Source: a virus. From it: a stretch of DNA of 24,551 nt. Position numbers and translations under genes: made by a program. Below are positions 2-18,976 of this stretch, in pieces (within the stretch, counting starts at the first letter, position 1; each line of letters starts with the position of its first letter). Where the stretch lies: positions 1 to 24,551 of the IMG/VR virus record IMGVR_UViG_3300045931_000039, one strand, 5' to 3'. The notes below the pieces were generated by a model that did not search any database, was not told the DNA's origin, and was given only the letters and a program-made list of their open reading frames with translations.

Positions 2-250
2 GCGTCGGCTGATCATGCATCCGTGACCTCCTACACGATCAACATCTACGCGCTGGGGACCAGCAGCCCCACGGTCGCGTCTGTGAACATCGGCAAGCCG
101 ACGCCGGCGGCGAATAACTCGATCAGTTACGACATTACGGCGCTCGTGGCGCCGCTGACGCCAGGGAACTACACCGCCAAGGTGCAGGCGACCGCGCCCG
201 GCGGTTCATCCGAGTCCACTGGCGTCAACTTCGAGGTGCCTTTGACATGA
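2..250 (+). CDS. C-terminal end of a fibronectin III-like phage appendage protein (5' partial)
   Basis: The reading frame is open from the left edge of the window, so this is the 3' end of a longer gene; the GTG at 23 is only an internal valine unless the gene is tiny. The visible 82 residues alternate short beta-strand-like stretches and end with L-x-P-G-N-Y-T followed by V-x-A, the usual last strands of a fibronectin type III or Ig-like domain. Such domains decorate phage tail tips, fibres and exposed capsid proteins and bind surfaces weakly; that role here is inference. The TGA stop (248-250) overlaps the ATG of the next gene at 247, so the two are probably translationally coupled and belong to one adhesion operon. 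What lies upstream cannot be seen. Confidence 0.6.
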   Translation, partial: ASADHASVTSYTINIYALGTSSPTVASVNIGKPTPAANNSISYDITALVAPLTPGNYTAKVQATAPGGSSESTGVNFEVPLT

Positions 251-3200
251 CAGCCCTGTTCTTCTTGTTGCTCTCGGCGATCCTGCTGCAGGTTCCCGCG
301 GCACCCACGAATCCAAATCTGTCCGTCCTGCACGTCGTCATCACGGCCCCCACGGCGAACCCGACGTATAACGCGGGCTCTGCGACCGAGCTGACCACGC
401 TCGCAGGGACGGCGACCTCGAGCCAGACGATCACCGTCTGCACCTGGACGAACAGCCTCGGCGGCGGTGGATCCGCGACCGGGACGACGTCCTGGAGCGT
501 CTCGAGCATTGCGCTCGCAGACGGCGACAACGTGATCACGGTGACCTGCACGACGAATGGCGGGGTGCAGCGGAGTGATGTCATCACGGTGTCCAGCGGC
601 GAGGCCGCCGGCGTGTCGGTCAACCTGACCGTCCAGGAGGCCCTCTACGACGGCGGCTCGGTGGGCGTCAACCGCACCAATGAGCCAGTCGTGGTCGGGG
701 TTCCCCTGCCAGATGGCGACGGCTGCGAAACCGATACGTCGAATTTTGGGCTGACGGGCGCGTCCTACGGCCAATTCCGGGTGCTCGGAACATGGGACTC
801 CGGCTGCATCAAGTGGGTGCAGGTTGCGACACTGCTGGGGTCACTGAGTGCGGGTGCCGAGTCCACCGCTGTGACGTTGACGAACAGCGGGTCGGGCAAC
901 TTCGGGGCGTCAAACATGGCGACCGATACCGGGAGCACCCTCGTGGTCGATACGGGGCCTGCCGAGTTCACGATCAAAGAAGCCAATTACAACGGGTTTG
1001 ACATCGTCGTCATCGACGGAGCCACGGTCGTCTCGACCGGCGGGAGCGGTGGTCCCGTTCTGACTGGTCCGACGTTCAGTAATACGCGCTGCGGGTCGGG
1101 TGGCGCCGATGGGCCGGTGTGCTCCACGATCTACGCCGCATTCAACGACGACGACACAGCCTGCACGATTGAGCAAAACGGCCCAGTCCTCGCGGTGATC
1201 AAGTGCGAAGGGGCATTGGAAGACAGTTCAAACAACATCTACATGCGGTACACGGACCGCCTCTATTTCTACCAGGGGAAGAAGCACGTTAAGGTCGTCA
1301 ATACGCTGCGGAATGCGGACGATGGGTCCGGGGGATCATTTGCGACCGCCTACAAGGGGATGGCCGCGTACGAGTGGCGAGTCGCACCCAACATCAGCGG
1401 CACGCGCACCTACGACATCTCAGAGCACGGCGGCAATGTTGAGAACGGCACGATCAGCGGCACCGACGATGTCTATCTCTATCAGGCCAAGTCGCTGCTG
1501 ATGGAGTCGGGGGATTGGGGTGAAGCGACCCTGTCCACCGGCTACGCGTTCGACTACACGACGACGACCGGCTACACCATCGAGAAGACGTCGGGGAACT
1601 TGGGCAGCGGGACGTCAGCCTATACCAACGCGCCTGGCGGCTGGGCGGACATCCGTGACTCCGGTGGGAAAGGCGTCACGATCGGCTTCTATCAGATGGC
1701 CGCCTACTGGCCGAAGTCGCTGGAGTTCAACGACGCGGGATCAGATACGCGGCTCGGCATCTGGCCCAGACAGAATGTCCAGCAGTACTATCAGGCGTGG
1801 CCACAGTGGAGCACGCACGATCTGTACTTCAACTTCCACGACGAAGCCCTCGCGTCTCCCGGCGATGAGTTCCTGAAGTTCCAGCACGAATTGCTCGCCC
1901 GGGCCTCCGTCGCGCATTACAACTCGACGCAGGTCTTCCCGCTCCCGCTCCCCGACGCGACGGAGGAGGAGAACTACTACAAGGCGGTGGGCGCGGCGGG
2001 GGTGCCGACGATCAGCGCGGGCGCCATGTGGCCCTACCCGGACCCGGCGGTTCCGGGCACTGGCAACGCGGGCAGCGGTCTGCACATCCACCGTGCGTGG
2101 GCGTGGCCCGCAGGCGGCGGCGGTAATCAGATGGAGCTGCGCTGGTCCGGGCTGATGAACTGGATCGTGCGGGGCTACACCGGCCGGTATCTCTACGCGA
2201 AGCACTTCTACCGGTTCCAGACCGATGACACGCAGCCGCATTCGGACGGCGGCTTCCACTGGCGGGACAAGACGTCCGGGGTGGAAATCGATGTTGGGGT
2301 CGGGCGCCCGCGCATCACATCGACGAACGGGAAGTCATCTGCCCACGGCTTCGAGCAGATCGGCGCGCTCCTCTCGGGCGCGACGGTGTCCAGCGCGAAT
2401 CCCGCCGTGGTGACCGTGACCTCCCATGGACTGGAGACAGGCCAGAAGGTGGCGTTGAGTAGTGCGACGACGAGCGGCTGGACCGATTACAACACTCGCA
2501 TCCTGACGATCACCGTCCTCAGCGCGAACACATTCAGCCTCCAATATAGCGGCTCGAATCTCGATGCCTCCACGTTCGGATCTTTCGATGGCAACGTCGG
2601 GTTTTTCACCGCCTTTACCGCGTGGACCGACTCCGAGCACGCGCACGTCTACGGGATGGGTGATTACTACTTCATGACCGGGGATGAGCTGATCAGGGAC
2701 TCGATCGTGGACACGATCCCGGACTACCTGACGGCCCCCGGCTACTACACGACCAACCTCCTGAAAACGACCACCCGCGCCTGGGGTGTGCGGATGATCA
2801 ACAACGGGCGCTGGCTCGCGTTCCTCAAGGCGATCGGCGAGGACACCGAGGCTGAGAATATCTCCGACATCGTCGACGCAGCCTTTCCGGTCATGTTCGC
2901 GACCGATCCCGGTCCGTGTCCGGTATCTTCAGAAACGGCTCTTGGGTGTACTGCTCCCTCACCGCCCGGGTATGGCTCTGATGATGAGGGCATGGGTGTG
3001 GACATCACGCGGGGGATCTACTGGAACGGCGGGACCAATCAGGGGTGGGTGTGCGACTCCGACGGGGGGAACCGCGCCCACGGCGTCGTGATGAGCCACA
3101 CCGTCGTGGAGGGGCTGATCAACTACAGCGACGCTCGCGGGACTGGCTGGTCCGACTACTGGAAGGCGCGTGACTACGCCTACGGGATTTCGCAAGGGGT

Positions 3201-4968
3201 CATGAACGAAACCCTCGCGGAGCTGTGGTACGACAACGGCAGCGACCGGTGGGATCAGGAGGGGCCGCGCCCGTGGGCACGCATGGATCTCAAGAGCGGG
3301 TGCGGGGCGAGTCCAGACGACAGTAACTATGAGGTCGGGGCCCGTACGACCATCTGGTACTTCTACTACGTTGATTGGCTGACCAATGGCGGCCTGCGGT
3401 GGAAGGAGCGTTTCGACCGAGCCCTGCAGGTCATCATGGGGGAGATCGGTCTGAACTGGGGCGAGAACGGATCCTTCGGCGTCGGCGCGCTGACGCACCT
3501 GGCCGAGAATCCGGGCGAGACGGAGTTGCAGGATGTCTACATCAACACGTTCACGCACCTGGGGAGCGGCACCTATCGCCTCCAGTGGGCGGTGCCGGAT
3601 GGGACCACGTCCTACCGGATCAAGTGGTCGGACAAGGAGATCGTCGACTGGATCGGGTTCGACACCGACGAGGCCTACGCCTACGTCGGCGACCCGACCA
3701 CGCAGATCAACTGGTTCGCGGCGACCAACGTCGATCCGGACGACATCCCGACGCCGGGGGCGGCAGGCTCCCAGCAGTCCATCACGATCGCCACGGGCGA
3801 CACCGGCCTGACCCTCGACAACTTCTCGGTCAAGGCCTACTACCCGCCCGCCGAGGACGGCCTGCCGTCGCTGACCTGGAGCACGATGTCGCTCGGTGGC
3901 GACACCTACAACGCGGCGGCACAGATCAAGCACATCTACGATGACGTCTCGGGCCAGATCCTCACCTACATCAAGCGCGGCACGGGCGCGGGGATCTACT
4001 CGACCGACTACTTCGCCCTCAACTCCAACACGGAGGTGCTCACCCGGATCGGCGGCACCGGATCGCCGTCGCATGGGTGCGTCACCTACCCGAACGACGA
4101 CCCCGGTGTGTGGGACGACGGCAGCGGATCAGACATTCAGCCCTGGCTGAGCGACCGCCACCCGGATCACCGCAGCGCGATCCTGAACGGGTATCTCTGG
4201 CAGTCGGGCGGCTTGGTCTGCGGAGACATCCCGAACGACCTGCTCCGAATGGAGCTGGAGGCCGACCCGACCGACAACACGACGGCGAAGTACACCCCGG
4301 CCAACGACGATGGGCAGGATGTCAACTCGTCGATGGCATCGGACCCGACGCATGAAGTGCTGCTGTTGATTGGCACGACCGGGAGCCAGGGCACCATCAG
4401 CGTCAAGGCCTACTGCCCGGTGGTGGGATCGCTGACGGCAGCCCAGACGGCCGCCGGATGCTCCGTGGGCGATACCTGGGAGACGGTCTACTCCCTCGGG
4501 GTCACGAACTCGCCGAATGAGTACGAATCTCGCGTGGCGGCCGACACGTTCTACGACGCCACGCTGGACAAGGTGCTCATCTTCAAGGCGCGTGACGAGA
4601 GTTCGACCTGGTCGAACGAGGTCTGGGAATACGACGTCGAGTCCAAGACGATGACCCAGGCCAGCGTGACCGGGGCGCCTAGCAACCTCATCTCCTTCCA
4701 GATGGAGTCGTTGACGGTCCCGATTCGAGGTGGCCGCTGGAAGGGCAAGTACCTCTACATCCGGACCAGTCATCATCTGACCACCAGCAGCAGCCAGTCA
4801 GGGGTGTGGCTCTATGACCCGGTGGCCCGGAGCTACACGGCGATCTCGACGTCAGGGACCGGGCCGGAGCTGGTCTCGGCCACGGAGTTCGATCCCTCGG
4901 TCGGCACCGACGGCGCGGTGATCTCGCTGGAATACAACAACACGTGGCGTAAGGGAGTGCTGAAGTAA
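247..4968 (+). CDS. large secreted-type tailspike/appendage protein with PcRGLX/YetA-like lyase region
   Basis: This 1573-residue protein starts with a Sec-type signal sequence (residues 1-19: hydrophobic FFLLLSAILL core, then VPAAP). Residues about 30-118 look like a bacterial Ig domain (aGTAts, WsvsSiaLadGdNvItVTC). Residues about 120-1010 have the build of the exo-rhamnogalacturonan lyase (PcRGLX/YetA) family: a first beta domain with EPVVVGVPLPDG and a later WDSGCIKW, then a helical toroid segment with W793-T-D-S-E-H-A-H and DYYFMTGDE. An E1-FCCH-like phage domain (NPAVVTVTSHGL..TGQ) is embedded at about 711-782. A fibronectin-like stretch follows near 1095-1200, and about 1215-1573 repeats blades reminiscent of a Kelch propeller. 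By analogy it degrades a host surface polysaccharide from the virion, but no catalytic residue can be assigned. The family call is from motif memory and is moderate; phage-tail association is inferred from its neighbours. Confidence 0.6.
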   Translation: MTALFFLLLSAILLQVPAAPTNPNLSVLHVVITAPTANPTYNAGSATELTTLAGTATSSQTITVCTWTNSLGGGGSATGTTSWSVSSIALADGDNVITVTCTTNGGVQRSDVITVSSGEAAGVSVNLTVQEALYDGGSVGVNRTNEPVVVGVPLPDGDGCETDTSNFGLTGASYGQFRVLGTWDSGCIKWVQVATLLGSLSAGAESTAVTLTNSGSGNFGASNMATDTGSTLVVDTGPAEFTIKEANYNGFDIVVIDGATVVSTGGSGGPVLTGPTFSNTRCGSGGADGPVCSTIYAAFNDDDTACTIEQNGPVLAVIKCEGALEDSSNNIYMRYTDRLYFYQGKKHVKVVNTLRNADDGSGGSFATAYKGMAAYEWRVAPNISGTRTYDISEHGGNVENGTISGTDDVYLYQAKSLLMESGDWGEATLSTGYAFDYTTTTGYTIEKTSGNLGSGTSAYTNAPGGWADIRDSGGKGVTIGFYQMAAYWPKSLEFNDAGSDTRLGIWPRQNVQQYYQAWPQWSTHDLYFNFHDEALASPGDEFLKFQHELLARASVAHYNSTQVFPLPLPDATEEENYYKAVGAAGVPTISAGAMWPYPDPAVPGTGNAGSGLHIHRAWAWPAGGGGNQMELRWSGLMNWIVRGYTGRYLYAKHFYRFQTDDTQPHSDGGFHWRDKTSGVEIDVGVGRPRITSTNGKSSAHGFEQIGALLSGATVSSANPAVVTVTSHGLETGQKVALSSATTSGWTDYNTRILTITVLSANTFSLQYSGSNLDASTFGSFDGNVGFFTAFTAWTDSEHAHVYGMGDYYFMTGDELIRDSIVDTIPDYLTAPGYYTTNLLKTTTRAWGVRMINNGRWLAFLKAIGEDTEAENISDIVDAAFPVMFATDPGPCPVSSETALGCTAPSPPGYGSDDEGMGVDITRGIYWNGGTNQGWVCDSDGGNRAHGVVMSHTVVEGLINYSDARGTGWSDYWKARDYAYGISQGVMNETLAELWYDNGSDRWDQEGPRPWARMDLKSGCGASPDDSNYEVGARTTIWYFYYVDWLTNGGLRWKERFDRALQVIMGEIGLNWGENGSFGVGALTHLAENPGETELQDVYINTFTHLGSGTYRLQWAVPDGTTSYRIKWSDKEIVDWIGFDTDEAYAYVGDPTTQINWFAATNVDPDDIPTPGAAGSQQSITIATGDTGLTLDNFSVKAYYPPAEDGLPSLTWSTMSLGGDTYNAAAQIKHIYDDVSGQILTYIKRGTGAGIYSTDYFALNSNTEVLTRIGGTGSPSHGCVTYPNDDPGVWDDGSGSDIQPWLSDRHPDHRSAILNGYLWQSGGLVCGDIPNDLLRMELEADPTDNTTAKYTPANDDGQDVNSSMASDPTHEVLLLIGTTGSQGTISVKAYCPVVGSLTAAQTAAGCSVGDTWETVYSLGVTNSPNEYESRVAADTFYDATLDKVLIFKARDESSTWSNEVWEYDVESKTMTQASVTGAPSNLISFQMESLTVPIRGGRWKGKYLYIRTSHHLTTSSSQSGVWLYDPVARSYTAISTSGTGPELVSATEFDPSVGTDGAVISLEYNNTWRKGVLK

Positions 4969-5726
4969 TGCCGCTGCTCGACGACCTGAAGGTCTTCTAC
5001 GAGTTCGAGGGCGACGGCACCGACGCGCACACCGTCGGCCCGTATGACTTGACGGCGGTGAACAGTCCCACGTTCGCCGCCGGGAAGGTCAACGACGCCG
5101 TCGAGTTCGATGGCGCGAACTTCCCGAACGTCCAGAGCCTGCGGGTCAACAGCAACTCGGACCTGCAGAACGGCAGTATTGATTTCAGCTACGGCCTCTG
5201 GGTCTACCTGGACTCGGACCCCGGCGAGGACCGCTACGTGTTCAGTCGCTGGGGCTCGACCGGATCCACGCATCGATCCTGCTACTTGCAGTGGGCCGAC
5301 GCGTTCAATCTGTTGCGGTTCGTGGTCGGGTATGACTCCGGCGGCGGCAGCTACACGACCAATGACGTGTATTCGACGCAAAACGTCAACGTCGGCAGCT
5401 GGTACTACGTGCAGTGCGGCCATCGGAACGGCTCGAACATCTGGATCGCGATCAACGACAACGACCAGAACACCACAAACCACACACAAGGCACGCTGGC
5501 CGGGTCGGCGCGGCTGAACATCGGCGGCTTTGATAGCGACGACGGGTCACTGACCGACAAGGGCTGGCCGGGGCTCGTGGATCAATTCGGCTACTGGAAG
5601 CGGACCATCTACGGGGACCAGGACGCGCTGTATAACAGCGGCGCGGGGCTGTCGTACGCCGCTATGGGCGGGGGCGGCGGCGGCGGGGGCGGGGCCCAGA
5701 ACGTGTACTACCGACGCCGCCGATGA
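4968..5726 (+). CDS. LamG/concanavalin A-like lectin-domain appendage protein
   Basis: The 252-residue product opens with LLDDLKVFYEFEG and DAVEFDGAN, then SFDFSYGLWVY-like strands, a WYYVQCGHRNG segment and a closing GLVDQFGYWKR; this is the strand order of LamG-like jelly-roll domains (Laminin_G_3), which bind carbohydrates. One domain fills residues about 5-225. The tail of the protein is a run of nine glycines followed by AQNVYYRRRR, an odd basic end. The ATG is formed within the TAATG that ends the previous gene, and its own TGA overlaps the next ATG (ATGA at 5723), so it is coupled on both sides. A role as receptor-binding lectin on the tail tip is inferred from domain type and neighbourhood. 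Confidence 0.75.
   Translation: MPLLDDLKVFYEFEGDGTDAHTVGPYDLTAVNSPTFAAGKVNDAVEFDGANFPNVQSLRVNSNSDLQNGSIDFSYGLWVYLDSDPGEDRYVFSRWGSTGSTHRSCYLQWADAFNLLRFVVGYDSGGGSYTTNDVYSTQNVNVGSWYYVQCGHRNGSNIWIAINDNDQNTTNHTQGTLAGSARLNIGGFDSDDGSLTDKGWPGLVDQFGYWKRTIYGDQDALYNSGAGLSYAAMGGGGGGGGGAQNVYYRRRR
5666..5694 (+). other. possible G-quadruplex in the poly-glycine codons of the lectin gene
   Basis: The coding strand carries G runs of 3, 5, 5 and 4 bases at 5666-5668, 5670-5674, 5685-5689 and 5691-5694, separated by loops of 1, 10 and 1 bases. This meets the usual four-run pattern for a G-quadruplex. It also encodes the glycine stretch, so codon composition alone may explain it. Confidence 0.35.
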
Positions 5727-8547: not shown

Positions 8548-10292
8548 TGAGCGACCCAGTCACCCAGTACGCGCGGCGTGTGGGGGCCGGCGAGGAGATC
8601 GCGAGCGCGCTCGTCCGGAAGGCGTGCGCCCGTCACCTCGCGGACCTCGAGCACGGATCGCGGCGCGGGCTCGAGTGGCGACCGGCGGCGGCCGGCCGGG
8701 CGATCGACTTCTTCGCGGATGTCCTGTTCCTCCCGGAGTACACCGACGCCACCGAGGACGTGGCGGCCTCCTCGAGTAGCGAGCCGCGGCCGTTCGTGCT
8801 GGCGCCCTGGCAGGCGTTCATCGTCGGCAGCCTGTTCGGGTGGTACACCAGCGGTGGGTTCAGGCGATTCCGCGAAGCCTACATCGAGACGTCCAAGGGC
8901 GCAGGCAAGACGCCGCTCGGCGCCGGGATCATGCTCTACCTCCTCGTGGCGGACGGTGAGCGCGGCGCGCAAGTCTTTCTGGCCGCCGTCACGAAGGACC
9001 AGGCCGGGTATGCCTGGCGCGACTGCCGGGCGATGGTGCAGGCGTCACCGGAACTGTACGCCCTATTCGGGGAGGACGGGTTTCTCGCCAACGAGCTCCG
9101 GGTGACAGAGGATGGGTCGTTTCTGAGGCCGGTCTCGTCGGAGAAGCGCGGCCTCGATGGGAAGCGCGTGCACGGGGCGCTCGTCGACGAGCTCCATGAA
9201 CATGCGACCCCGATCGTGGTGAATAAGATGCGGGCCGGGACGAAGGGGCGCCGGAACGCGCTGATCGTGAAGACCACGAACAGCGGGTTCGACCGGACGT
9301 CCGTCTGTTGGCAGCATCACGAGTACTCGCGTCGGGTCCTCGACGGATCCATCACGAACGACACCTGGTTCGCCTTCATCTGCGGCCTCGATCCGTGTCA
9401 GGCGTGCGCGACTAAAGGGCTGTGGTTTCCCCAGGAGGACTGTCCGCACTGCGACGACTGGAAGACCGAGGGGCCGCACTGGTTGAAGGCGAATCCCAAC
9501 CTCGGGGTGTCGCTGCCGTGGCAATACGTGCGCGAGCGTGTGAGCCAGGCGATCGGGATGACGAGCCAGATCAGCGACGTCCTGCGGTTCAACTTCTGCG
9601 TGTGGACGCAGGTCCATAGCCACTTCCTGGACGTGGCGCGCTGGCAGCTGTGTGAGGGGGCTGTCACGGAGGCGGAGCTGGCAGGCGCGCGCTGTTTTGC
9701 GGGGCTGGACCTAGGGCAGTCCGATGACTTCACGGCGTTCGTGCTGGTGTGGATGCTCCAGGACGGCCGGATCGCGATTCGACCGAGGTTCTGGATACCG
9801 TCGTCGGCGCTCGAGAAACCGGGCCGGCCGTATCAGGACTGGCAGCGCGCGGGCGCGCTCGTCGTCGTGCCCGAGAGCGAAATCGTGGATTTGAACCAGG
9901 TCCAGGCGGAAGTGCAGGCGCTCTGTCTCGAGCACGGCGTCATCGAGTGCGCGTATGACAAGCGGTTCGCCGAGCAGATGTCCCAGAGCCTGACCGCTGC
10001 CGGGATCATGATGGTCAACACGGCGCAGGGGTTCCAGCTGACCGAAGCCCTTCGGAAGCTGTCGGACCTCGTGACGAACGAGACCCTGATCCACGACGGC
10101 AACCCGGTCATGACGTGGATGGCCGGGAACCTGGTGGTCAAGCACGGACCGAACCGGACGATGCGGCCTGACAAGGACAAGGCGACCGAGAAGATCGACG
10201 GAACAGTCGCGCTCGTGATGGCGCTCGACATCATCGTGCGGCAACCGGCCGACGGCGACGTGAGCGCAGATGACCTGGTGATGGTGCTATGA
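8544..10292 (+). CDS. terL: terminase large subunit (ATPase and nuclease)
   Basis: The 582-residue protein carries a Walker A motif S117-K-G-A-G-K-T123, a Walker B motif A-L-V-D215-E216-L-H, and the RNase H-like nuclease acidic residues at G-L-D389-L-G-Q-S-D-D-F, with a later K-I-D-G-T-V-A-L motif near the C-terminus. It drives DNA into the prohead through the portal and cuts the concatemer. Between the two domains lies a four-cysteine cluster C285-x2-C288-x11-C300-x2-C303, likely a zinc knuckle, just before the conserved WLKANPNLGVSL segment. Two adjacent ATGs are possible: 8544 overlaps the upstream stop, while 8547 sits at the better distance (6 bases) from AGGAA at 8536-8540. Confidence 0.93.
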   Translation: MMSDPVTQYARRVGAGEEIASALVRKACARHLADLEHGSRRGLEWRPAAAGRAIDFFADVLFLPEYTDATEDVAASSSSEPRPFVLAPWQAFIVGSLFGWYTSGGFRRFREAYIETSKGAGKTPLGAGIMLYLLVADGERGAQVFLAAVTKDQAGYAWRDCRAMVQASPELYALFGEDGFLANELRVTEDGSFLRPVSSEKRGLDGKRVHGALVDELHEHATPIVVNKMRAGTKGRRNALIVKTTNSGFDRTSVCWQHHEYSRRVLDGSITNDTWFAFICGLDPCQACATKGLWFPQEDCPHCDDWKTEGPHWLKANPNLGVSLPWQYVRERVSQAIGMTSQISDVLRFNFCVWTQVHSHFLDVARWQLCEGAVTEAELAGARCFAGLDLGQSDDFTAFVLVWMLQDGRIAIRPRFWIPSSALEKPGRPYQDWQRAGALVVVPESEIVDLNQVQAEVQALCLEHGVIECAYDKRFAEQMSQSLTAAGIMMVNTAQGFQLTEALRKLSDLVTNETLIHDGNPVMTWMAGNLVVKHGPNRTMRPDKDKATEKIDGTVALVMALDIIVRQPADGDVSADDLVMVL

Positions 10293-12586
10293 ACGTCTTT
10301 CAACGCACGTGGCATGCCCTGACGGGTCGGTCCTACTCTCCTGGCCCCTTGACGTGGGAATCCCTGATGCGCGAACACGTCAACACCAGCTCGGGGATCG
10401 CCGTCAGCGAAGAGACGGCGCTGCACCATTCGCCGATCTGGTCGGGGGTGTTCCAGCTCGCCGGCGACGTGGCGAAGTTGCCGCTCTCGCATAATCGCGT
10501 GCTAGCGAACGGCGGACGGCAGGTCTTCGCCGGGAAACTCCACGCCATCCTGCACGACAAGCCGAACCCGGAGATGACGTCGTTCAAGTTCCGGGAATGC
10601 ATGCAGGCGCTGTGTCTGCTTTACGGGAACGCGTACGCCGAGATCATCCGGGACGCGATCGGCCGTGTCGCGGGTCTGTATCCGATCGCGCCGCCGCGTG
10701 TCACACCGGTGCGCCAGGAGAGGACGGGGCGCCTGGTATACCGGGTTCAGCAGCCGTCGGGCGGTCAGGTGCTCGTCCCGCCAGAGAACATGATTCACCT
10801 GTCGAGCCTAAGTACGGACGGGATCCTCGGCCAGTCCATCACGGAACACGCGCGCGAGTCGATCGCGCTCGGTCTGGCGACGGAGAAGTTCGGCGCTACA
10901 TTCTTCGGAAACGGCTCAACATTCGGCGGCGTCGTTGAAGTCCAGCAGATGCTGAACGGCCCGAAGGGCGAAGAGGTCAAGGCCAACATCCGGAGCGCGA
11001 TTGAAGCGGTCCACTCCGGAGTCGAACGGGCGCACAAGATCCTGGTTCTCGGCGGCGGCGCGAAGTTCAACCAGCGCGGCACAAACCCGAATGAGGCGCA
11101 GTTCATCGAGACGCGCAAATTTCAGATCCAGGAGACTTCCCGGTGGCTCGTGATGCCGCCACACAAGCTGGGGGACCTCGACAACGCGCACTTCACGAAC
11201 ATCGAAGAGAGTGAGATCCAGTACTGGAAAGGGACCGTCCACCGCTGGCTGAAGATGTGGGAGCAGGAGCTGCAGTCGAAGCTGATTCCTGCACTCGAGC
11301 AGAACCTCCAGTCGATCGACTTCAATATGGAGGCCGAGCTTCGCGGCACGTCGCAGCAGCGGGCGGCCTTCTACAAGGAGATGCACGGGCTCGGGGTCTA
11401 CACGGTCAATATGATCCTTGAGAAGGAAGGGCTTCCGACCATCGGTCCTGACGGGGACAGGCGATTTGTTCCGATGAACACATCGATTCCACTGGACCGT
11501 GTCGATGAGTATGTGGACTCAGTGATCAAAAAGAACCAGCCGCCGAAGCCTCCGGAGTTGCCTGTACCTGCACCCAAGCCTGACGAGGACAACGAGCGCA
11601 TCCTCAATGAAGTGAAAGAACTCGCGGCGGCGGTGACTCGAAAACTCGAGCAGGACGTCGTGGACGCTACGGCGAAGGTCGCCGAGGCTGAGCAGCGAGC
11701 TGCAGCGGCGCAGGCGGCGGCCGAAGCGGTCACATCGTCCGAGCAGGCGGCCCGTGCTCAGGCTGAACAAGGGGAGCGCCAAGCAAAAGATGACGCCGCT
11801 GCGGCGCGCGTCGGGTTAGAGGAGTCGGAGGCCCGGCTTACGCAGGCACAGAGCGAGACCGAGACAGTCAGGGCGGATGCTGAGGCGAAGCAGGCCCTGA
11901 TTAACGCGGCGATGGCTGATGTGGTGGCCAAAACCGAAGCTCTCAGGCAGGCTGAAGCCGTGGCGTTGGAGCGGACGGAGGCGGCTCGAGTGGCAGCGGA
12001 GAAGGTGGCGGCGTCTGAAGCGGTGGCCCAGGAGCGAGCCGCAGAGGCCGAACGCCTTCTGGCTGAAGTGTCGGCCGCGGTGGAGGCGAGAGACCTAGAG
12101 CGTGCAAGGGTGGAGCGAGTCGAATCCGAGTTGGCCGATCGACGGAAGTCTGAGCAGGCAAGACTAGTGCGAGTCGTGACGTCGCATCGGGCGCTGGTGC
12201 TCGACGTGTTTCAGCGGGTGGCTCGGACGGAGACGGAGCGGGCTCGACGACGTGCGGCGAATCCGGACCAGTTGCGAAAGTGGGCGGATGCCTTCTATGA
12301 CGACATCGGCCGCGACATCTGCGCCGACATGCTGGTGCCGGCGATCCAGACGCACCTAGCCTGGAAGGGGTCCGACGAGGATCCGCGGGCGGTGGCGCGG
12401 GCGATGGCTAATGACTATTACGACGAGTCGGTCCAGCAGATCCGGACGATCTGTGAGGGGTTCGTGGGGGACGAGTATCACGCGTCGGTGACGCGGATGC
12501 TCGAGCGGTGGGAGCGTGAGCGGCCGCACATGGTCGCAGATAAGGTGGTCCGAGATGAAATCGCCGCACTCGTCAGCCGATCCTGA
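10289..12586 (+). CDS. HK97-family portal protein with long coiled-coil C-terminal extension
   Basis: Residues 1 to about 415 form a complete HK97-type portal: HSPIWSGVFQLAGDVAKLPL near the start, LYGNAYAEIIRD, VPPENMIHL and the RFQIQETSRW-like segment followed by PPHKLGDL. The dodecameric portal is the DNA gate at one capsid vertex. Family members such as HK97 gp3 are roughly 420 residues; this one is 765. After a Pro-rich linker (about 416-434) comes a roughly 190-residue Ala/Glu/Arg-rich heptad region (about 435-625), strongly coiled-coil, and then a helical domain (about 630-765) with QRVARTETERARRR and a WADAFYDDIGRDI segment, of a kind seen at the end of other phage portals. The extension is in frame with no sign of a sequencing join. 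ATG overlaps the terminase stop (ATGA). Confidence 0.9.
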   Translation: MNVFQRTWHALTGRSYSPGPLTWESLMREHVNTSSGIAVSEETALHHSPIWSGVFQLAGDVAKLPLSHNRVLANGGRQVFAGKLHAILHDKPNPEMTSFKFRECMQALCLLYGNAYAEIIRDAIGRVAGLYPIAPPRVTPVRQERTGRLVYRVQQPSGGQVLVPPENMIHLSSLSTDGILGQSITEHARESIALGLATEKFGATFFGNGSTFGGVVEVQQMLNGPKGEEVKANIRSAIEAVHSGVERAHKILVLGGGAKFNQRGTNPNEAQFIETRKFQIQETSRWLVMPPHKLGDLDNAHFTNIEESEIQYWKGTVHRWLKMWEQELQSKLIPALEQNLQSIDFNMEAELRGTSQQRAAFYKEMHGLGVYTVNMILEKEGLPTIGPDGDRRFVPMNTSIPLDRVDEYVDSVIKKNQPPKPPELPVPAPKPDEDNERILNEVKELAAAVTRKLEQDVVDATAKVAEAEQRAAAAQAAAEAVTSSEQAARAQAEQGERQAKDDAAAARVGLEESEARLTQAQSETETVRADAEAKQALINAAMADVVAKTEALRQAEAVALERTEAARVAAEKVAASEAVAQERAAEAERLLAEVSAAVEARDLERARVERVESELADRRKSEQARLVRVVTSHRALVLDVFQRVARTETERARRRAANPDQLRKWADAFYDDIGRDICADMLVPAIQTHLAWKGSDEDPRAVARAMANDYYDESVQQIRTICEGFVGDEYHASVTRMLERWERERPHMVADKVVRDEIAALVSRS

Positions 12587-13154
12587 GCTGGAAATCCGCA
12601 CGACCGGTTCGGCGTCGGTCGACCTGGCCGATGATGCCGTCATCCGTGGGTATGCGATTCGGTTCAACACGCTCTCCGGCAACCTGGGCGGATTCAGGGA
12701 ACGGATCGTGCCCGAAGCGGTCGACCGGTCGCTGAAGGGTGACGTCCGCGCGCTGGTCGACCACGACACGGCCAAGATTCTTGGGCGCACGAAGGCCGGC
12801 ACGTTGTCGATGCGGAAGGACACTAAGGGGCTCAAGGTGGAAATCGAACCAGACCCCGAGATCAGCTATGCCAGGGACATTCTGCGGTCGGTGAGCCGGG
12901 GCGACGTGTCGGGGATGTCGTTCGGATTCCGCGTGCTCGACGATGCCTGGGATGAGGACGAAGAGAGCGGGATGCCGATCCGCACGATTCTCGACATGAC
13001 CATCGCGGAAGTGTCGATCGTGACGTTTCCGGCATACGCGGAGACGTCGGCCGAAGTAGCGAAGCGGTCTTTGAACTTGTTCCTCGCAAAAAAGAAGGGC
13101 GCGAGCGACTGGCGGGCCAAGTACCACGAGATCCAGACGATCGCCGGGATTTGA
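12555..13154 (+). CDS. HK97-family prohead maturation protease (S78)
   Basis: The 199-residue protein shows the herpesvirus/HK97 protease fold: VIRGYAIRFNT near the start, the catalytic histidine in L-V-D-H70-D-T-A-K-I-L-G-R, the serine motif G-D-V-S-G-M-S-F-G-F (residues 116-125) and the following EVSIVTFPAY strand. It cuts the N-terminal scaffold (delta) domains of the capsid protein and itself during maturation. I choose the ATG at 12555 because AAGGTGG at 12542-12548 lies 6 bases upstream; a GTG at 12516 would give 13 more residues with no clear ribosome site. The start lies 32 bases inside the portal gene. Its TGA overlaps the TTGACA of the next promoter. Confidence 0.9.
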   Translation: MKSPHSSADPELEIRTTGSASVDLADDAVIRGYAIRFNTLSGNLGGFRERIVPEAVDRSLKGDVRALVDHDTAKILGRTKAGTLSMRKDTKGLKVEIEPDPEISYARDILRSVSRGDVSGMSFGFRVLDDAWDEDEESGMPIRTILDMTIAEVSIVTFPAYAETSAEVAKRSLNLFLAKKKGASDWRAKYHEIQTIAGI

Positions 13155-13180
13155 CAGAGAAGCGGACGAAGCCGTAATAT
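13151..13180 (+). promoter_or_regulatory. sigma70-like promoter for the major capsid gene
   Basis: A perfect -35 hexamer TTGACA (13151-13156) overlaps the protease TGA, and TAATAT (13175-13180, four of six bases of the -10 consensus) follows after 18 bases. Transcription would start near 13187 and leave a leader of about 200 bases. The position before the capsid gene fits the need for many capsid copies. Similarity to consensus is clear; use in vivo is inference. Confidence 0.6.
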
Positions 13181-13204
13181 TCCATTTCGAAAGACCTGAA
13201 CGAC

Positions 13205-13242
13205 TCGCGCGCGTCCCGTCGGCAGACTGACCACGCGCGCGA
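13205..13242 (+). other. perfect 10-bp inverted repeat in the capsid leader
   Basis: TCGCGCGCGT at 13205-13214 is exactly complementary to ACGCGCGCGA at 13233-13242, with an 18-base loop. It lies in the predicted 5' leader of the capsid transcript. No T tract follows, so it is not an intrinsic terminator. Confidence 0.65.
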
Positions 13243-13278
13243 TCGACAATCCAAGGTGAGATTCGCGCTTCGGTAGAC

Positions 13279-13340
13279 CGGGCGCAGTCCATCGGCAAAC
13301 CCAAATAGCGATTTTTGGGCTTGCCTGTAGGCTGCGCCCG
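13279..13340 (+). other. 62-base two-part hairpin in the capsid leader
   Basis: CGGGCGCAG (13279-13287) pairs with CTGCGCCCG (13332-13340); inside it GGCAA (13294-13298) pairs with TTGCC (13321-13325) and CCCAAA (13300-13305) with TTTGGG (13314-13319). A six-by-six internal loop separates the two stems. About 40 bases further on lies the GAGGA ribosome site of the capsid gene, so the element could stabilise the mRNA or tune initiation. Function is inferred. Confidence 0.65.
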
Positions 13341-13389
13341 TTTCGCGTCCGGGCTGTTCTCCAGGCAAGCGCACCACGAGGACAGCCAA

Positions 13390-14769
13390 ATGACGTACGA
13401 CGAACTCGTCACAAAGATCGGACAACTCAGTCAGCAGTCGAACGAGATCGTCACTCGGAACGCCAACAACGACGAGTGGCCGTCAGAAGACAAGGTCAAG
13501 TTCGACCAGATCCACACCGAGATCCGCAAGCTTGGCGAGACCAAGACCCGGATCGACCAGCAGCGGCGGATCGAAGCCGAACTGAACCAGACCACCCGTC
13601 AAACCGAACCCGACGAGCTCCGTCGCCAGGGGCTCACCGGCCCGAACAACCAGCCCCTCAAGCGCGCGTCTGATGAGGAGTGCGACTTCGCGCTGCGGGC
13701 CTGGCTGATGGCGCAGCACGGGGCTGACGCCGCGCAGCGGATCAAGACGGAGTGGAGATCCGCCGCGCAGAAGTTGGGCGTGAATATCGCCGACGGGTCG
13801 TTTCCGTTCAGGCTCGCGTCACGTCCCCCGCGCTCGACCCGCACGGCCGATGTCGACGCGTGGGAGACCCGCGCGCTGACGCTCACGACGACCGCCGGCG
13901 GCTACCTCGTCTCGGCGGAAATGAACCGGGCGCTCGAGGAGGCGCGGCTCTATTACGGGCCGATGCTCCAGCTCGCGACCACGATCCGCACCGACACCGG
14001 TGCGACGTTGCCGTTCCCGACGTTCAACGGCACGGCGACCAAGGGCCGGATCCTGTCCATCAACACCCAAGTCACGCTGACCGACCCGGCGTTTGGACAG
14101 ATGACGCTGAGCGCGTTCAAGTACTCGTCAGACGGCGTGCTGGTGCCGGAGGAACTGATCCAGGACAGTGGCGTGCCGATGTCGGACTTCCTGGGCCGCG
14201 CGCTCGGCGAGCGCATCGGGCGCATCCTGAACGAGCACTTCACGACCGGCGCCGGCACGACGCTTCCCTGGGGCGTGGCGGTGCGTGCGACGGCGGTCAA
14301 CCTGGGGACCGGCACGGCCGCCGGGTTCGGGTCGACCACGGACGGCACGGCGTACCGCAACATCCTGAAGATCCTGCACGGCGTCGACATCGCCTACCGG
14401 AGCGGCGGTGAAAAGGTCGGCTGGATGATGAACGACGCGACACTCCAGGTGATCGCCGGGTTCGTCGACGGCCAGGGCCGTCCGCTCTGGGTGCCGTCGC
14501 TTGTCGCTGGCGAGCCCGATCGCCTCATGGGCTACCGCATCTTCATCAACAACGACATGACCTCCACGTTCGCCAACAACGCGCGAACGGTCCTGTTCGG
14601 CGACTTCTCGAAGTACATCGTCCGAGAGGTGCGGGACATCGCGGTCGTGAGCTCGCGTGAGCGGTACATCGACTTCCACCAGACGCTGTTCCTGGCCTTC
14701 GGCCGGTACGACGGTGACCTGCTCAACGCCGGAACCGGTCCGATCAAGGCTGGCGTCCATCAGACCTAG
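13390..14769 (+). CDS. HK97-family major capsid protein
   Basis: The 459-residue protein has the usual two parts. Residues 1 to about 100 are a charged helical delta/scaffold region (YDELVTKIGQLSQQ, then a KFDQIHTEIRKLGETKTRI coiled coil). From about residue 155 the capsid fold follows: TTTAGGYLVSAEM, LPFPTFNGTATKGRI, FKYSSDGVLVPEELIQD, a GAGTTLPWGV turn, WMMNDATLQVI, LMGYRIFIN and a closing FGDFSKYIVR with ERYIDFHQTLFLAFGRYDG. It forms the icosahedral shell and the upstream protease should remove the delta region. The ATG at 13390 is chosen because GAGGA (13378-13382) lies 7 bases before it; a TTG 75 bases upstream falls inside the leader hairpin. Confidence 0.93.
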   Translation: MTYDELVTKIGQLSQQSNEIVTRNANNDEWPSEDKVKFDQIHTEIRKLGETKTRIDQQRRIEAELNQTTRQTEPDELRRQGLTGPNNQPLKRASDEECDFALRAWLMAQHGADAAQRIKTEWRSAAQKLGVNIADGSFPFRLASRPPRSTRTADVDAWETRALTLTTTAGGYLVSAEMNRALEEARLYYGPMLQLATTIRTDTGATLPFPTFNGTATKGRILSINTQVTLTDPAFGQMTLSAFKYSSDGVLVPEELIQDSGVPMSDFLGRALGERIGRILNEHFTTGAGTTLPWGVAVRATAVNLGTGTAAGFGSTTDGTAYRNILKILHGVDIAYRSGGEKVGWMMNDATLQVIAGFVDGQGRPLWVPSLVAGEPDRLMGYRIFINNDMTSTFANNARTVLFGDFSKYIVREVRDIAVVSSRERYIDFHQTLFLAFGRYDGDLLNAGTGPIKAGVHQT

Positions 14770-14797
14770 TTCGACACTGAGTTCGATGGAGTTCGCG

Positions 14798-15100
14798 ATG
14801 CTGGAGGCGGCGCCTGAGCGCGCCGTCTCACGCTCAGGGAAGCCGATGAAGGCGTTCCTCCTGCGAAAGTGGGCTGGGTATATGCCGGGCCAGGTGCTGA
14901 CGAATGTTGTGCCTGGCTCGGTCCCAACCGGCGTTGCGCGCTTCTACGCGGACGACGAGCCGACCCCGTGCGACATCGTGAAGGGGTCAGGCCTGGGCCT
15001 AAAACCGCTGGATGTGGTGAACGACGCGATCGATCCGGCGGCGGTAGATGCTGTCGACGCGGCGCACCGCCGCGCGCTCGACGCTGCACGGAACAGGTGA
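14798..15100 (+). CDS. small capsid-associated protein between capsid and connector genes
   Basis: The frame gives about 100 residues. Its core, MKAFLLRKWAGYMPGQVL followed by VPTGVARFYADD, resembles the short proteins found just after the capsid gene in many siphoviruses, which share a K-x-x-F-L-R-x-W-x-G-Y-x-x-G-Q-V opening and often end in a charged tail. Their function is not established. The C-terminus here is Ala/Asp/Arg rich (AVDAVDAAHRRALDAAR). Three starts are possible: 14786, 14798 (GGAG at 14788-14791, 6 bases upstream) and 14846 (AGGGAA just upstream, and the point where similarity to such proteins begins). I list 14798 for its ribosome site. Confidence 0.6.
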   Translation: MLEAAPERAVSRSGKPMKAFLLRKWAGYMPGQVLTNVVPGSVPTGVARFYADDEPTPCDIVKGSGLGLKPLDVVNDAIDPAAVDAVDAAHRRALDAARNR

Positions 15101-15104
15101 CGCC

Positions 15105-15740
15105 GTGCCGAGTACTCCGTATCAGTCTTATGACGCGTATCGGCTGGAGTCGTGGCGCACGCGCGGCGTGTCCAGGTTAGTCACGGCTCCGAGCGATGAG
15201 CCTGTCAGTATCGATACGCTGCGATTGCACGCCGGCATCACGGCGGCGGACGCGGAACTATTGTTGCCGCTGCGGATTAAGGCGGCCCGCGGGTTCGTTG
15301 AGAATTATACCGGCCGGGCGCTGTGGACGCAGACATGGCGGGACACCTTCGACCAGCTGCCGTGTGGGTACGCGCCGCTGATGCTCGGGCGTGCGCCAGT
15401 GATCGCGATCACTTCGATCACGCAGTACAGCCCCACGGACACCGCGACGGTGCTCGACCCGTCGAACTACCGCCTCGACGCCGATTCGGTGCCGGCGCGT
15501 GTCGTGGTCGACGACGGGGTGTACTGGAATCCGGACCCGAGGCGTTTTGGCAGTCTGGTCGTCGAATACACCGCGGGGTACGGGACGAACCCGGAAGCCA
15601 TCCCGGCCGAGCTCCGGCATGCGGTCATTCTCCTGGCGACGCAGTGGAGCACGTATCTCGAGGCGGCCTCTGACATCGAGGTGCAGGAGATGCCGCTCGG
15701 CGTGCGGGCGCTCCTAGATCCGTTCATGGTGGTCGCGTGA
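15105..15740 (+). CDS. head-tail connector, HK97 gp6/phiE125 gp8-like
   Basis: The 211-residue protein begins, after a short N-terminal extension, with VTAPSDEPVSIDTLRLHAGI, continues with LLLPLRIKAARGFVENYTGRAL and a WTQTWRDTFDQLP strand, then the APVIAITSITQYSP and YRLDADSVPARV strands and a VEYTAGYGTN loop; this is the phiE125 gp8 layout (an HK97 gp6-like helical core plus a beta part). Rings of such proteins sit under the portal and lengthen the DNA channel. The GTG at 15105 is chosen because AGGTGA at 15095-15100 is well placed; an ATG-like start further up would overlap the previous gene by 50 bases. The last codons overlap the next GTG. Confidence 0.82.
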   Translation: MPSTPYQSYDAYRLESWRTRGVSRLVTAPSDEPVSIDTLRLHAGITAADAELLLPLRIKAARGFVENYTGRALWTQTWRDTFDQLPCGYAPLMLGRAPVIAITSITQYSPTDTATVLDPSNYRLDADSVPARVVVDDGVYWNPDPRRFGSLVVEYTAGYGTNPEAIPAELRHAVILLATQWSTYLEAASDIEVQEMPLGVRALLDPFMVVA

Positions 15741-17048: not shown

Positions 17049-17468
17049 ATGGCAGCACTTCCCGGCATTGGGGCAAGTCTCAAGGTGGATTCCGCCGTCA
17101 ACGTGTTGACGGAGATCGCGACATACCTGACGGACATCAGTGGCGACGTCTCGACCGACGAGCTGGACGGGACCACGTTCCAGCCCGGCGCGACGTCGCC
17201 GACAAAGTACATCGTGTTCGGCGCGACCGAACGTACGATGGCCATCACGGGCATGTGGGTCCCGGCCGCGGAGACGTTTTTCGCGGCGATCGACGGGCTC
17301 CAGAACCTCGATTACGAGTACGGGCCGGAGGGCACGGCGAGCGGGAAGACCAAGATCAGCGGCACGCTCAACGCCGGTGGCTGGTCGGGTCCGCAGCAGA
17401 CCGTCAATGGGTTGATCACATTTACGATGACCTTCAAGGTCAACAGCCGGACCGTCAGCACGTTCTAA
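17049..17468 (+). CDS. major tail tube protein
   Basis: The 139-residue protein has the siphovirus tube layout: a strand with VLTEIATYLTDISGDVSTDEL, then GATSPTKYIVFGATERTMAITGMW, a helix at WVPAAETFFAAIDGL, and paired strands with GKTKISGTLNAGGW and LITFTMTFKVNSRTV. Hexamer rings of this protein stack to make the tail tube around the tape measure. A strong GAGGAG site (17036-17041) sits 7 bases before the ATG, fitting a highly made protein. It follows a 99-base gap that holds only a small hairpin (TCCGC/GCGGA at 16988-17001). Confidence 0.8.
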   Translation: MAALPGIGASLKVDSAVNVLTEIATYLTDISGDVSTDELDGTTFQPGATSPTKYIVFGATERTMAITGMWVPAAETFFAAIDGLQNLDYEYGPEGTASGKTKISGTLNAGGWSGPQQTVNGLITFTMTFKVNSRTVSTF

Positions 17469-17970: not shown

Positions 17971-18315
17971 GTGGCGGTGATCGACTTCGGTGGGAAGCCA
18001 CGGACTCTCAAGTTCGACCTCGCGGCCATTCGTGATCTGGAGACGGCGCTCGACGGCCGTCCGCTGGCGACCGTGATCGGGGACATCACGCGGATCGGCG
18101 TGACGGCCACGACGGCGGCGCTCTGGGCGGGCCTCAAGCACGAAGACAAGACCCTCAATATCAACCTCGTCACGAAGATGCTCGAGCGGCACTTGAGCGA
18201 AGGGAAAGGGCTCCGAACGCTGGCGCGGGCGATCGACGCCGCGCTCGAGGAGACGGGGCTCTTCAAGACGGACGAGGACGATGACGTGGGAAACGGACCG
18301 GCGGCGGAGCTGTAG
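17971..18315 (+). CDS. tail assembly chaperone, first frame (GTA gp10/TAC-like)
   Basis: The 114-residue protein has DFGGKPRTLKFDLAAIRDLETAL and LNINLVTKMLERHL, the pattern of gene-transfer-agent/siphovirus tail assembly chaperones that coat the tape measure before the tube forms. It starts with GTG at 17971 after AAAGGG; no ATG is in frame. Near its end the codons read GTG GGA AAC, forming the slippery heptamer GGGAAAC at 18288-18294, and its TAG (18313-18315) lies in the loop of the downstream stem. This is the non-shifted product; a share of ribosomes is expected to shift to the second frame, as with lambda gpG and gpGT. Confidence 0.8.
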   Translation: MAVIDFGGKPRTLKFDLAAIRDLETALDGRPLATVIGDITRIGVTATTAALWAGLKHEDKTLNINLVTKMLERHLSEGKGLRTLARAIDAALEETGLFKTDEDDDVGNGPAAEL

Positions 18316-18611
18316 AAGCGCCGCCGCCGTCATTCCGTGCGTGGCTCGAGTGGGCGGAAGCGTGGGGGATCGGCGAGCTCGGTCTGATGCCGGCGCAGTT
18401 CTGGTCGCTGACGGTGCGGGAGTTCTGGCTGAAGTGGCACGCCTACGCGCGCACCGAAGATCGGCGCCGGTCCCTGCTGTTTGAATACCTCGGGATGACG
18501 GCGTCGGCACAGATGAAACCGTCGGACCGGTCGAAGGTGTGGCGCAGCGTGAATCAGTTGCGGCGGTATCCGCTGAAACGATGGCTCTTACCAGACGGAC
18601 CGACGTCGTAA
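18285..18611 (+). CDS. tail assembly chaperone, second frame reached by -1 frameshift
   Basis: This frame is open from 18285 to the TAA at 18611 but has no ATG, GTG or TTG before the ATG at 18387. Conserved-looking sequence starts well before that ATG (PPPSFRAWLEWAEAWGIGELGLMPAQFW), the W-A..LGLxPxxFWxLTxxEF pattern of the short rcc01693-type proteins that follow the first chaperone in gene transfer agents. So it is best read as join(17971..18294, 18294..18611), a 213-residue fusion made by slipping back one base at GGGAAAC. The shorter product from ATG 18387 would lack this part. The end overlaps the gp10-like gene by 31 bases. Confidence 0.75.
   Translation, partial: RGKRTGGGAVEAPPPSFRAWLEWAEAWGIGELGLMPAQFWSLTVREFWLKWHAYARTEDRRRSLLFEYLGMTASAQMKPSDRSKVWRSVNQLRRYPLKRWLLPDGPTS
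18288..18329 (+). promoter_or_regulatory. -1 programmed ribosomal frameshift signal
   Basis: G-GGA-AAC (18288-18294) is in the first chaperone frame exactly as the X-XXY-YYZ rule requires. Four bases later CGGCGGCGG (18299-18307) is perfectly complementary to CCGCCGCCG (18321-18329), with a 13-base loop that can form a further GCT/AGC stem. A slippery heptamer plus a close downstream stem is the established frameshift design. Confidence 0.8.
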
Positions 18612-18976
18612 GGCTCGAGGGGATGGACGCGCTCCAGCGGGCGCTGAAGGATTCGCTCGAGGAGATGCGGGCGCAGGTCGCGCAGGCCGTCGCCGTCACG
18701 ACGTTCGCGGCGGCGCAGGGCGTGCGGGCGCGGGCGCCGCGGGACACGGGGCTCCTGCTCAGCCAGATCACGTCGTCGTCCCGCGGGCTGCGCGGGGTCG
18801 TCGAGATGGGGGTAGACGCCTTTTACTGGCCGTGGGTCGAGTACGGGACTGTGAAGATGGCGGCGCGGCCGTTCGTGCGGCCGGCGGCCGAAGCCGAGTT
18901 CCCAAACCTCGAACGCCGGTTGAGGGACATCGGGACTCGGCTCGAGCGCGGCTTCACCCTGGCGAGGGCTGCTTAG
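18581..18976 (+). CDS. HK97 gp10-like protein
   Basis: The 131-residue protein carries the family pattern: V-R-L-E-G-M-D-A-L-Q-R-A-L near the start, V-R-A-R-A-P-R-D-T-G-L-L in the middle, then W-V-E-Y-G-T-V-K-M-A-A-R-P-F-V-R-P-A. HK97 gp10 proteins are thought to act in head-tail joining or tail completion. They normally lie between the head-closure and DUF3168 genes; here the gene lies between the chaperone and the tape measure. The ATG at 18581 is inside the chaperone gene and has no strong ribosome site, suggesting coupling. Its TAG is directly followed by the tape measure ATG. Confidence 0.8.
   Translation: MALTRRTDVVRLEGMDALQRALKDSLEEMRAQVAQAVAVTTFAAAQGVRARAPRDTGLLLSQITSSSRGLRGVVEMGVDAFYWPWVEYGTVKMAARPFVRPAAEAEFPNLERRLRDIGTRLERGFTLARAA

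Follow-up and report, generated by a model that had tools for sequence, protein, structure and literature searches.

Do two overlapping frames in the tail module of a virus form one gene that is expressed through a ribosomal frameshift, or two genes that are expressed independently? The question is raised by a 24.5-kb IMG/VR virus record analysed over its full length of 24,551 nucleotides (the window). Between the genes for the major tail protein and the probable tape measure, two chaperone frames overlap, with the second in the -1 frame relative to the first (Table 1). An earlier, sequence-only reading of the window had described a slippery heptamer and a hairpin at this overlap, and had likened the pair to the chaperones of gene transfer agents.

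Table 1. Features of the chaperone locus and its neighbors in the window.
Feature	Position	Strand	Basis
Major tail protein, upstream neighbor of the chaperone pair	17049..17468	+	phrog_10528, 2.7e-10
Zero-frame tail assembly chaperone (G-like)	17971..18315	+	phrog_2115 tail protein, 1.8e-13
Slippery heptamer G_GGA_AAC, in phase for a -1 shift	18288..18294	+	Sequence; in-phase GGGAAAC in 21/70 relatives
T-like chaperone extension in the -1 frame (TAC_6), lacking a usable start	18294..18611	+	PF09550, 5.7e-6
4-nt spacer GGAC	18295..18298	+	Sequence
Putative stimulatory hairpin: 9 bp, A.G mismatch, 3 bp, 5-nt loop GTAGA with zero-frame stop	18299..18329	+	Folding, arm shuffling, relatives
Zero-frame stop TAG, within hairpin loop	18313..18315	+	Sequence
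HK97-gp10-like (Neck1/tail completion) gene, overlaps 3′ end of -1 frame	18581..18976	+	PF04883, 1.6e-7; phrog_5, 3.4e-20
Probable tail tape measure protein, 962 aa	18977..21865	+	Position, length, weak coiled-coil/tape-measure matches only

The head-tail genes of the window comprise terminase, portal, HK97-type capsid, connectors, major tail protein, the chaperone pair, an HK97-gp10-like gene and the probable tape measure, and the surroundings of the pair are those of an ordinary siphovirus-type head-tail module. The frame of the upstream, G-like protein has two start options, GTG 17971 with GGAAAGGG 8 nt upstream or GTG 17977. The best match of this protein is phrog_2115, a phage tail family, and it scored below the cut-offs for both PF12363 (TAC_12; 0.0021) and PF11836 (GTA-gp10; 0.0046, 17.4 bits versus a cut-off of 27.8). 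The T-like frame exceeded the Pfam cut-off for TAC_6 (PF09550; 27.1 bits versus 23.4), a family for which a control search gave matches in Caulobacter vibrioides and Corynebacterium glutamicum. The proposed pairing of a GTA gp10-like with an rcc01693-like chaperone therefore held for the second protein, but not at the level of the Pfam cut-off for the first. The likeness to gene transfer agent g10 and rcc01693 (PF11836 and PF09550) concerns the domain families only, whereas the window, as a virus record, encodes a terminase, portal and capsid of its own. A plasmid search for a GTA-type locus returned weak matches only.

Slip site, stop codon and hairpin

The zero frame ends ...GAC GTG GGA AAC GGA CCG GCG GCG GAG CTG TAG. 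The codons at the heptamer are thus GTG, GGA and AAC, which is the X_XXY_YYZ arrangement productive for a -1 shift, and 18 nt separate the heptamer from the zero-frame stop. The open stretch of the -1 frame spans 18285-18611; its earliest ATG, GTG or TTG is the ATG at 18387, which already lies within the conserved domain. Both the phase and the four-base gap described in the sequence-only reading were borne out, as was the lack of a start codon ahead of the conserved part of the downstream frame. The bare GGGAAAC string is not rare, with four occurrences in the window compared to 2.64 expected; chance is excluded instead by the phase, the place and the conservation of the signal in relatives.

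The hairpin begins with a perfect 9-bp stem (18299-18307 paired with 18321-18329). This stem had been described exactly, but three further pairs (18309-18311 with 18317-18319) beyond an A.G mismatch (18308/18320) had been missed. The zero-frame stop is indeed inside the loop (18312-18316). It was also correctly noted that neither product can be made without unwinding of the stem, as its 5′ arm lies between the slip site and the stop. In a 63-nt context none of 200 shuffles folded as well as the native sequence (energy z -3.48). When the 5′ arm region was shuffled, none of 300 variants paired as well (z 4.39), which places the window among the strongest of the tested loci. In a 141-nt context the total folding energy was unremarkable (z -0.46) because the whole region is GC-rich, and the hairpin was still present in the predicted structure. 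Thus, the hairpin in the window does not easily arise by chance.

Taken with the survey described below, the sequence, the phase, the hairpin, the missing start codon and the conservation in relatives make it very probable that the window carries a programmed -1 ribosomal frameshift in a phage tail assembly chaperone gene. As far as sequence can settle it, the two frames function as a single recoded gene. We infer from the family that slippage occurs, how frequent it is, and which roles the two proteins have. The majority of ribosomes would read from 17971 or 17977 to 18315 and release a short G-type chaperone. A minority would pause at the hairpin 4 nt downstream of the heptamer, where tRNA-Gly on GGA and tRNA-Asn on AAC could slip back together by one base onto GGG_AAA. 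These ribosomes would bypass the TAG at 18313 and continue to 18611, producing a G-T fusion (...DDVGN-RTGGGAVEAPPPSFRAWLEW...). If the pair behaves as in lambda, the tape measure protein would be coated by numerous G and a few G-T molecules, with the T part recruiting the major tail protein.

G-T frameshifting has been described as widely conserved across long-tailed phages (PMC5009743), and the window pair is a new example of the known lambda G/GT-type frameshift, a trick familiar from many tailed phages. The likeness to lambda extends to the place after the major tail protein, the two overlapping chaperone frames in the -1 relation, the in-phase X_XXY_YYZ near the zero-frame stop and the downstream frame that lacks its own start (PMC5009743). 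In contrast to lambda, the heptamer is G_GGA_AAC rather than G_GGA_AAG, a strong hairpin with the stop in its loop lies 4 nt downstream, the T domain is of the TAC_6 type, and a gp10-like gene intervenes between T and the tape measure. G_GGA_AAC itself has been reported as the g-t shift site in the haloarchaeal siphovirus HCTV-1 (PMC5009743), where the identical heptamer serves the same gene function. The motif is of low efficiency in E. coli, yet is common in IS elements (PMC4066793). This low efficiency was counted against a frameshift, as was the absence of the heptamer from some relatives. A weak site would suit a small fusion share of the lambda kind, which is about 1 in 30 (PMC5009743).

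Conservation of the signal among relatives

Relatives were collected with a profile of four diverged zero-frame chaperones, which retrieved 80 IMG/VR loci at 25-100% identity, including two identical copies. Further loci were added by one search from the T side and two from loci with an in-phase C_CCT. Searches with single proteins for close relatives found only the identical copies, which come from two other records. The survey set comprised 70 non-redundant loci, most of which were found via the zero-frame protein; as a -1-frame partner was required for selection, the counts apply to such chaperone pairs and not to chaperones in general. The T-like frame sat in the -1 frame in nearly all loci fetched. 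In close relatives the G-like protein is 51-57% identical to that in the window with the same gene order, and for the T-like frame the identity to its -1-frame counterpart in the closest of them is 42-54%.

An X_XXY_YYZ heptamer was present near the stop in the productive phase in 54 of the 70 loci compared to six in each of the other phases, and codon shuffling predicted only 13.1 (maximum 24 among 1000 shuffles). For XXXAAA[CG], the corresponding values were 44 in the productive phase versus one and none. In-phase GGGAAAC was the most frequent form, against a codon-shuffle expectation of 1.4 loci, followed by AAAAAAC and CCCAAAC. The tail of the zero frame is not conserved in close relatives save for the Gly-Asn encoded by GGAAAC, which is its most constant point. 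The best stems 3′ of the heptamer surpassed dinucleotide shuffles (p<=0.1) in 18 of 32 loci. Twelve of these 18 strong hairpins held the stop in the loop, compared to 7.5 by permutation (p 0.0003), although this placement follows partly from geometry as the 3′ arm is also coding sequence for the beginning of T. As the register of the hairpin varies among relatives, 5′-arm shuffling was used in place of base-by-base covariation. With only the stretch from slip site to stop shuffled, a stop-in-loop stem was significant (p<0.05) in 12 of 31 testable loci (binomial 1.4e-8), and therefore the arrangement recurs. Thus, as expected of a stimulatory 3′ RNA structure, a stable fold is located a few nucleotides past the slip site, exceeds chance and recurs in relatives, and the hairpin is proposed to be a putative stimulator of slippage.

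The alignment of relatives that the sequence-only reading had recommended consequently favored its view that a -1 frameshift probably joins the two chaperone frames: the comparison supports this strongly, with the in-phase heptamer retained in the majority of loci and hairpins beyond chance. Relatives with both proteins and no slippery run were to speak against it; the heptamer is indeed absent from 16 of the 70 loci, nine of which have an in-phase C_CCT. It is very unlikely that the downstream frame is instead a separate gene whose translation begins 3′ of the TAG through reinitiation or an internal start. Phages with independent chaperone genes do occur, and in some relatives a start overlaps the stop (for example GTG A in L028 and L111). 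However, a separate gene in the window would have to begin at or after 18387 and would lose the conserved FRAWLEWAEAWGIGELGL part, and it would leave the phase-specific heptamer and hairpin of the relatives unexplained. Reinitiation at such NTGA overlaps is possible in L028 and L111, which are among the loci without a heptamer.

A single gene interrupted either by a true frameshift mutation or by an error of sequencing or assembly would look alike in one sequence if a single base were at fault. This explanation has next to no probability and is in effect refuted by the relatives: the -1 relation and the in-phase slip site are shared by dozens of diverged loci that come from different samples, and two other records contain the identical sequence. 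Transcriptional slippage can arise at runs of one base in other systems, and might in principle produce the shift in place of the ribosome. GGGAAAC has runs of only three bases, and the conserved pattern is one of tandem codons in a specific phase with a hairpin downstream, so that a transcriptional origin is scarcely credible.

Similar loci were noted elsewhere. Among bacterial genomes, a scan returned a single locus, in a Clostridiales MAG, with in-phase GGGAAAC directly before the stop. The joined frames are annotated in deposited records of distant relatives, namely the Paenibacillus phages Bob and LincolnB (in-phase AAAAAAC) and the Bacillus phage Silence (in-phase CCCAAAG). Silence and the Geobacillus phage GBK2 resemble the window in possessing a homologous G (31% identity for GBK2; Silence is 54% identical to GBK2), a TAC_6-like T in the -1 frame, and in-phase CCCAAAG and CCCAAAC, respectively, near the stop. 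They differ in that the heptamer is at the stop or within 3 nt of it, and GBK2 differs further in that its Neck1 gene is upstream of the major tail protein and only a shorter, separate gene is annotated for T. Overall, the survey provides a well-sampled family of chaperone frameshift cassettes that combine a slip site with a hairpin and a stop in its loop, and reveals that the T frame has been missed or shortened in some public annotations. In the public records of GBK2 (L006, 2845-3153) and L008 (2758-3111), the annotated T gene starts within the domain; as CCCAAAC occurs in phase at the zero-frame stop or immediately 5′ of it, a frameshift fusion seems to have been missed in each. In the Methanosarcinales virus vir515 (L007, 2408-2594), in-phase GGGAAAC is 180 nt 5′ of the zero-frame stop in a long two-frame overlap, no heptamer is found near that stop, and most of the T frame is without an annotated gene.

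Loci with an in-phase C_CCT

The nine loci with in-phase C_CCT among the 16 that lack a heptamer compare with two and none in the other phases, and with 4.8 by codon shuffling. The codon-shuffle test gave p 0.014, and 0.0025 in a first, smaller set, values that are optimistic because the pattern was noticed by inspection and most of the loci used to test it were those in which it had been noticed. More telling is a series of close relatives. Some relatives, close ones included, have lost the heptamer and carry an in-phase C_CCT at the corresponding position, in many cases with a hairpin after it. The aligned place reads GAG GGA AAC GCG in L023, GAG GGA AAC CCT in L029, GCC GAA AAC CCT in L024, GCG GCA AAC CCT in L113 and L114, GCC GAC CCT in L028 and L111, CGC CCT in L025 and L105, and GTC CCT in L026. 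Across L024-L029, L105, L111, L113 and L114, the sites just 5′ of the zero-frame stop are GGGAAAC, GGGAAACCCT, AAACCCT or CCCT, and both chaperone frames are kept. In L027 the CCCT form is CCCTTTG.

The series is suggestive of a slip site that moved by one codon, from GGGAAAC through GGGAAACCCT and AAACCCT to CCCT; we infer the order, and hence the direction of change, from aligned sequences rather than from a tree. It is conceivable, at somewhat below even chances, that the site moved stepwise downstream by one codon via a stage with two overlapping sites (GGGAAACCCT), and that several phages now make G-T by a -1 slip of a single tRNA-Pro on C_CCU, aided by a hairpin with the stop in its loop. 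C_CCU allows moderate slippage in E. coli if a stimulator is present (PMC4066793), and no report of its use in tail chaperones was found in open-access text.

Two further loci are candidate tetramer frameshift cassettes. In L046 (2770-2850), C_CCT is followed after 5 nt by an 11-bp perfect hairpin around the stop (shuffle test p 0.003), and in L070 (2820-2905), also after 5 nt, by a hairpin of 15 positions with one mismatch around the stop (0 of 300 shuffles). Neither has a heptamer or a nearby T-frame start, the first starts being 68 nt (L046) and 104 nt (L070) past the stop. If the C_CCT relatives do shift, they would constitute a natural series of a slippery site that moves or shrinks to a single-tRNA tetramer.

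Neighboring genes

The order of major tail protein, G, T and HK97-gp10-like gene is maintained in most close relatives checked. The HK97-gp10-like (Neck1) gene separates T from the tape measure in the window and in several close relatives, and is upstream of G in GBK2, L031 and L039; its place in the tail module has changed. An N-terminal relative of the tape measure candidate is present in L020. A capsid search retrieved L012, whose capsid is 72% identical and whose tail module is different. That module (9440-15263) includes an inserted methyltransferase-like ORF and its own chaperone-like ORF with in-phase AAAAAAC ~50 nt before the stop. At the other end of the window, a very long ORF of 1573 aa (247-4968) with a PcRGLX-like beta-sandwich match adjoins a gene for a laminin-G/ConA-like protein (4968-5726), and the products are likely to be receptor-binding or tail-fiber proteins.
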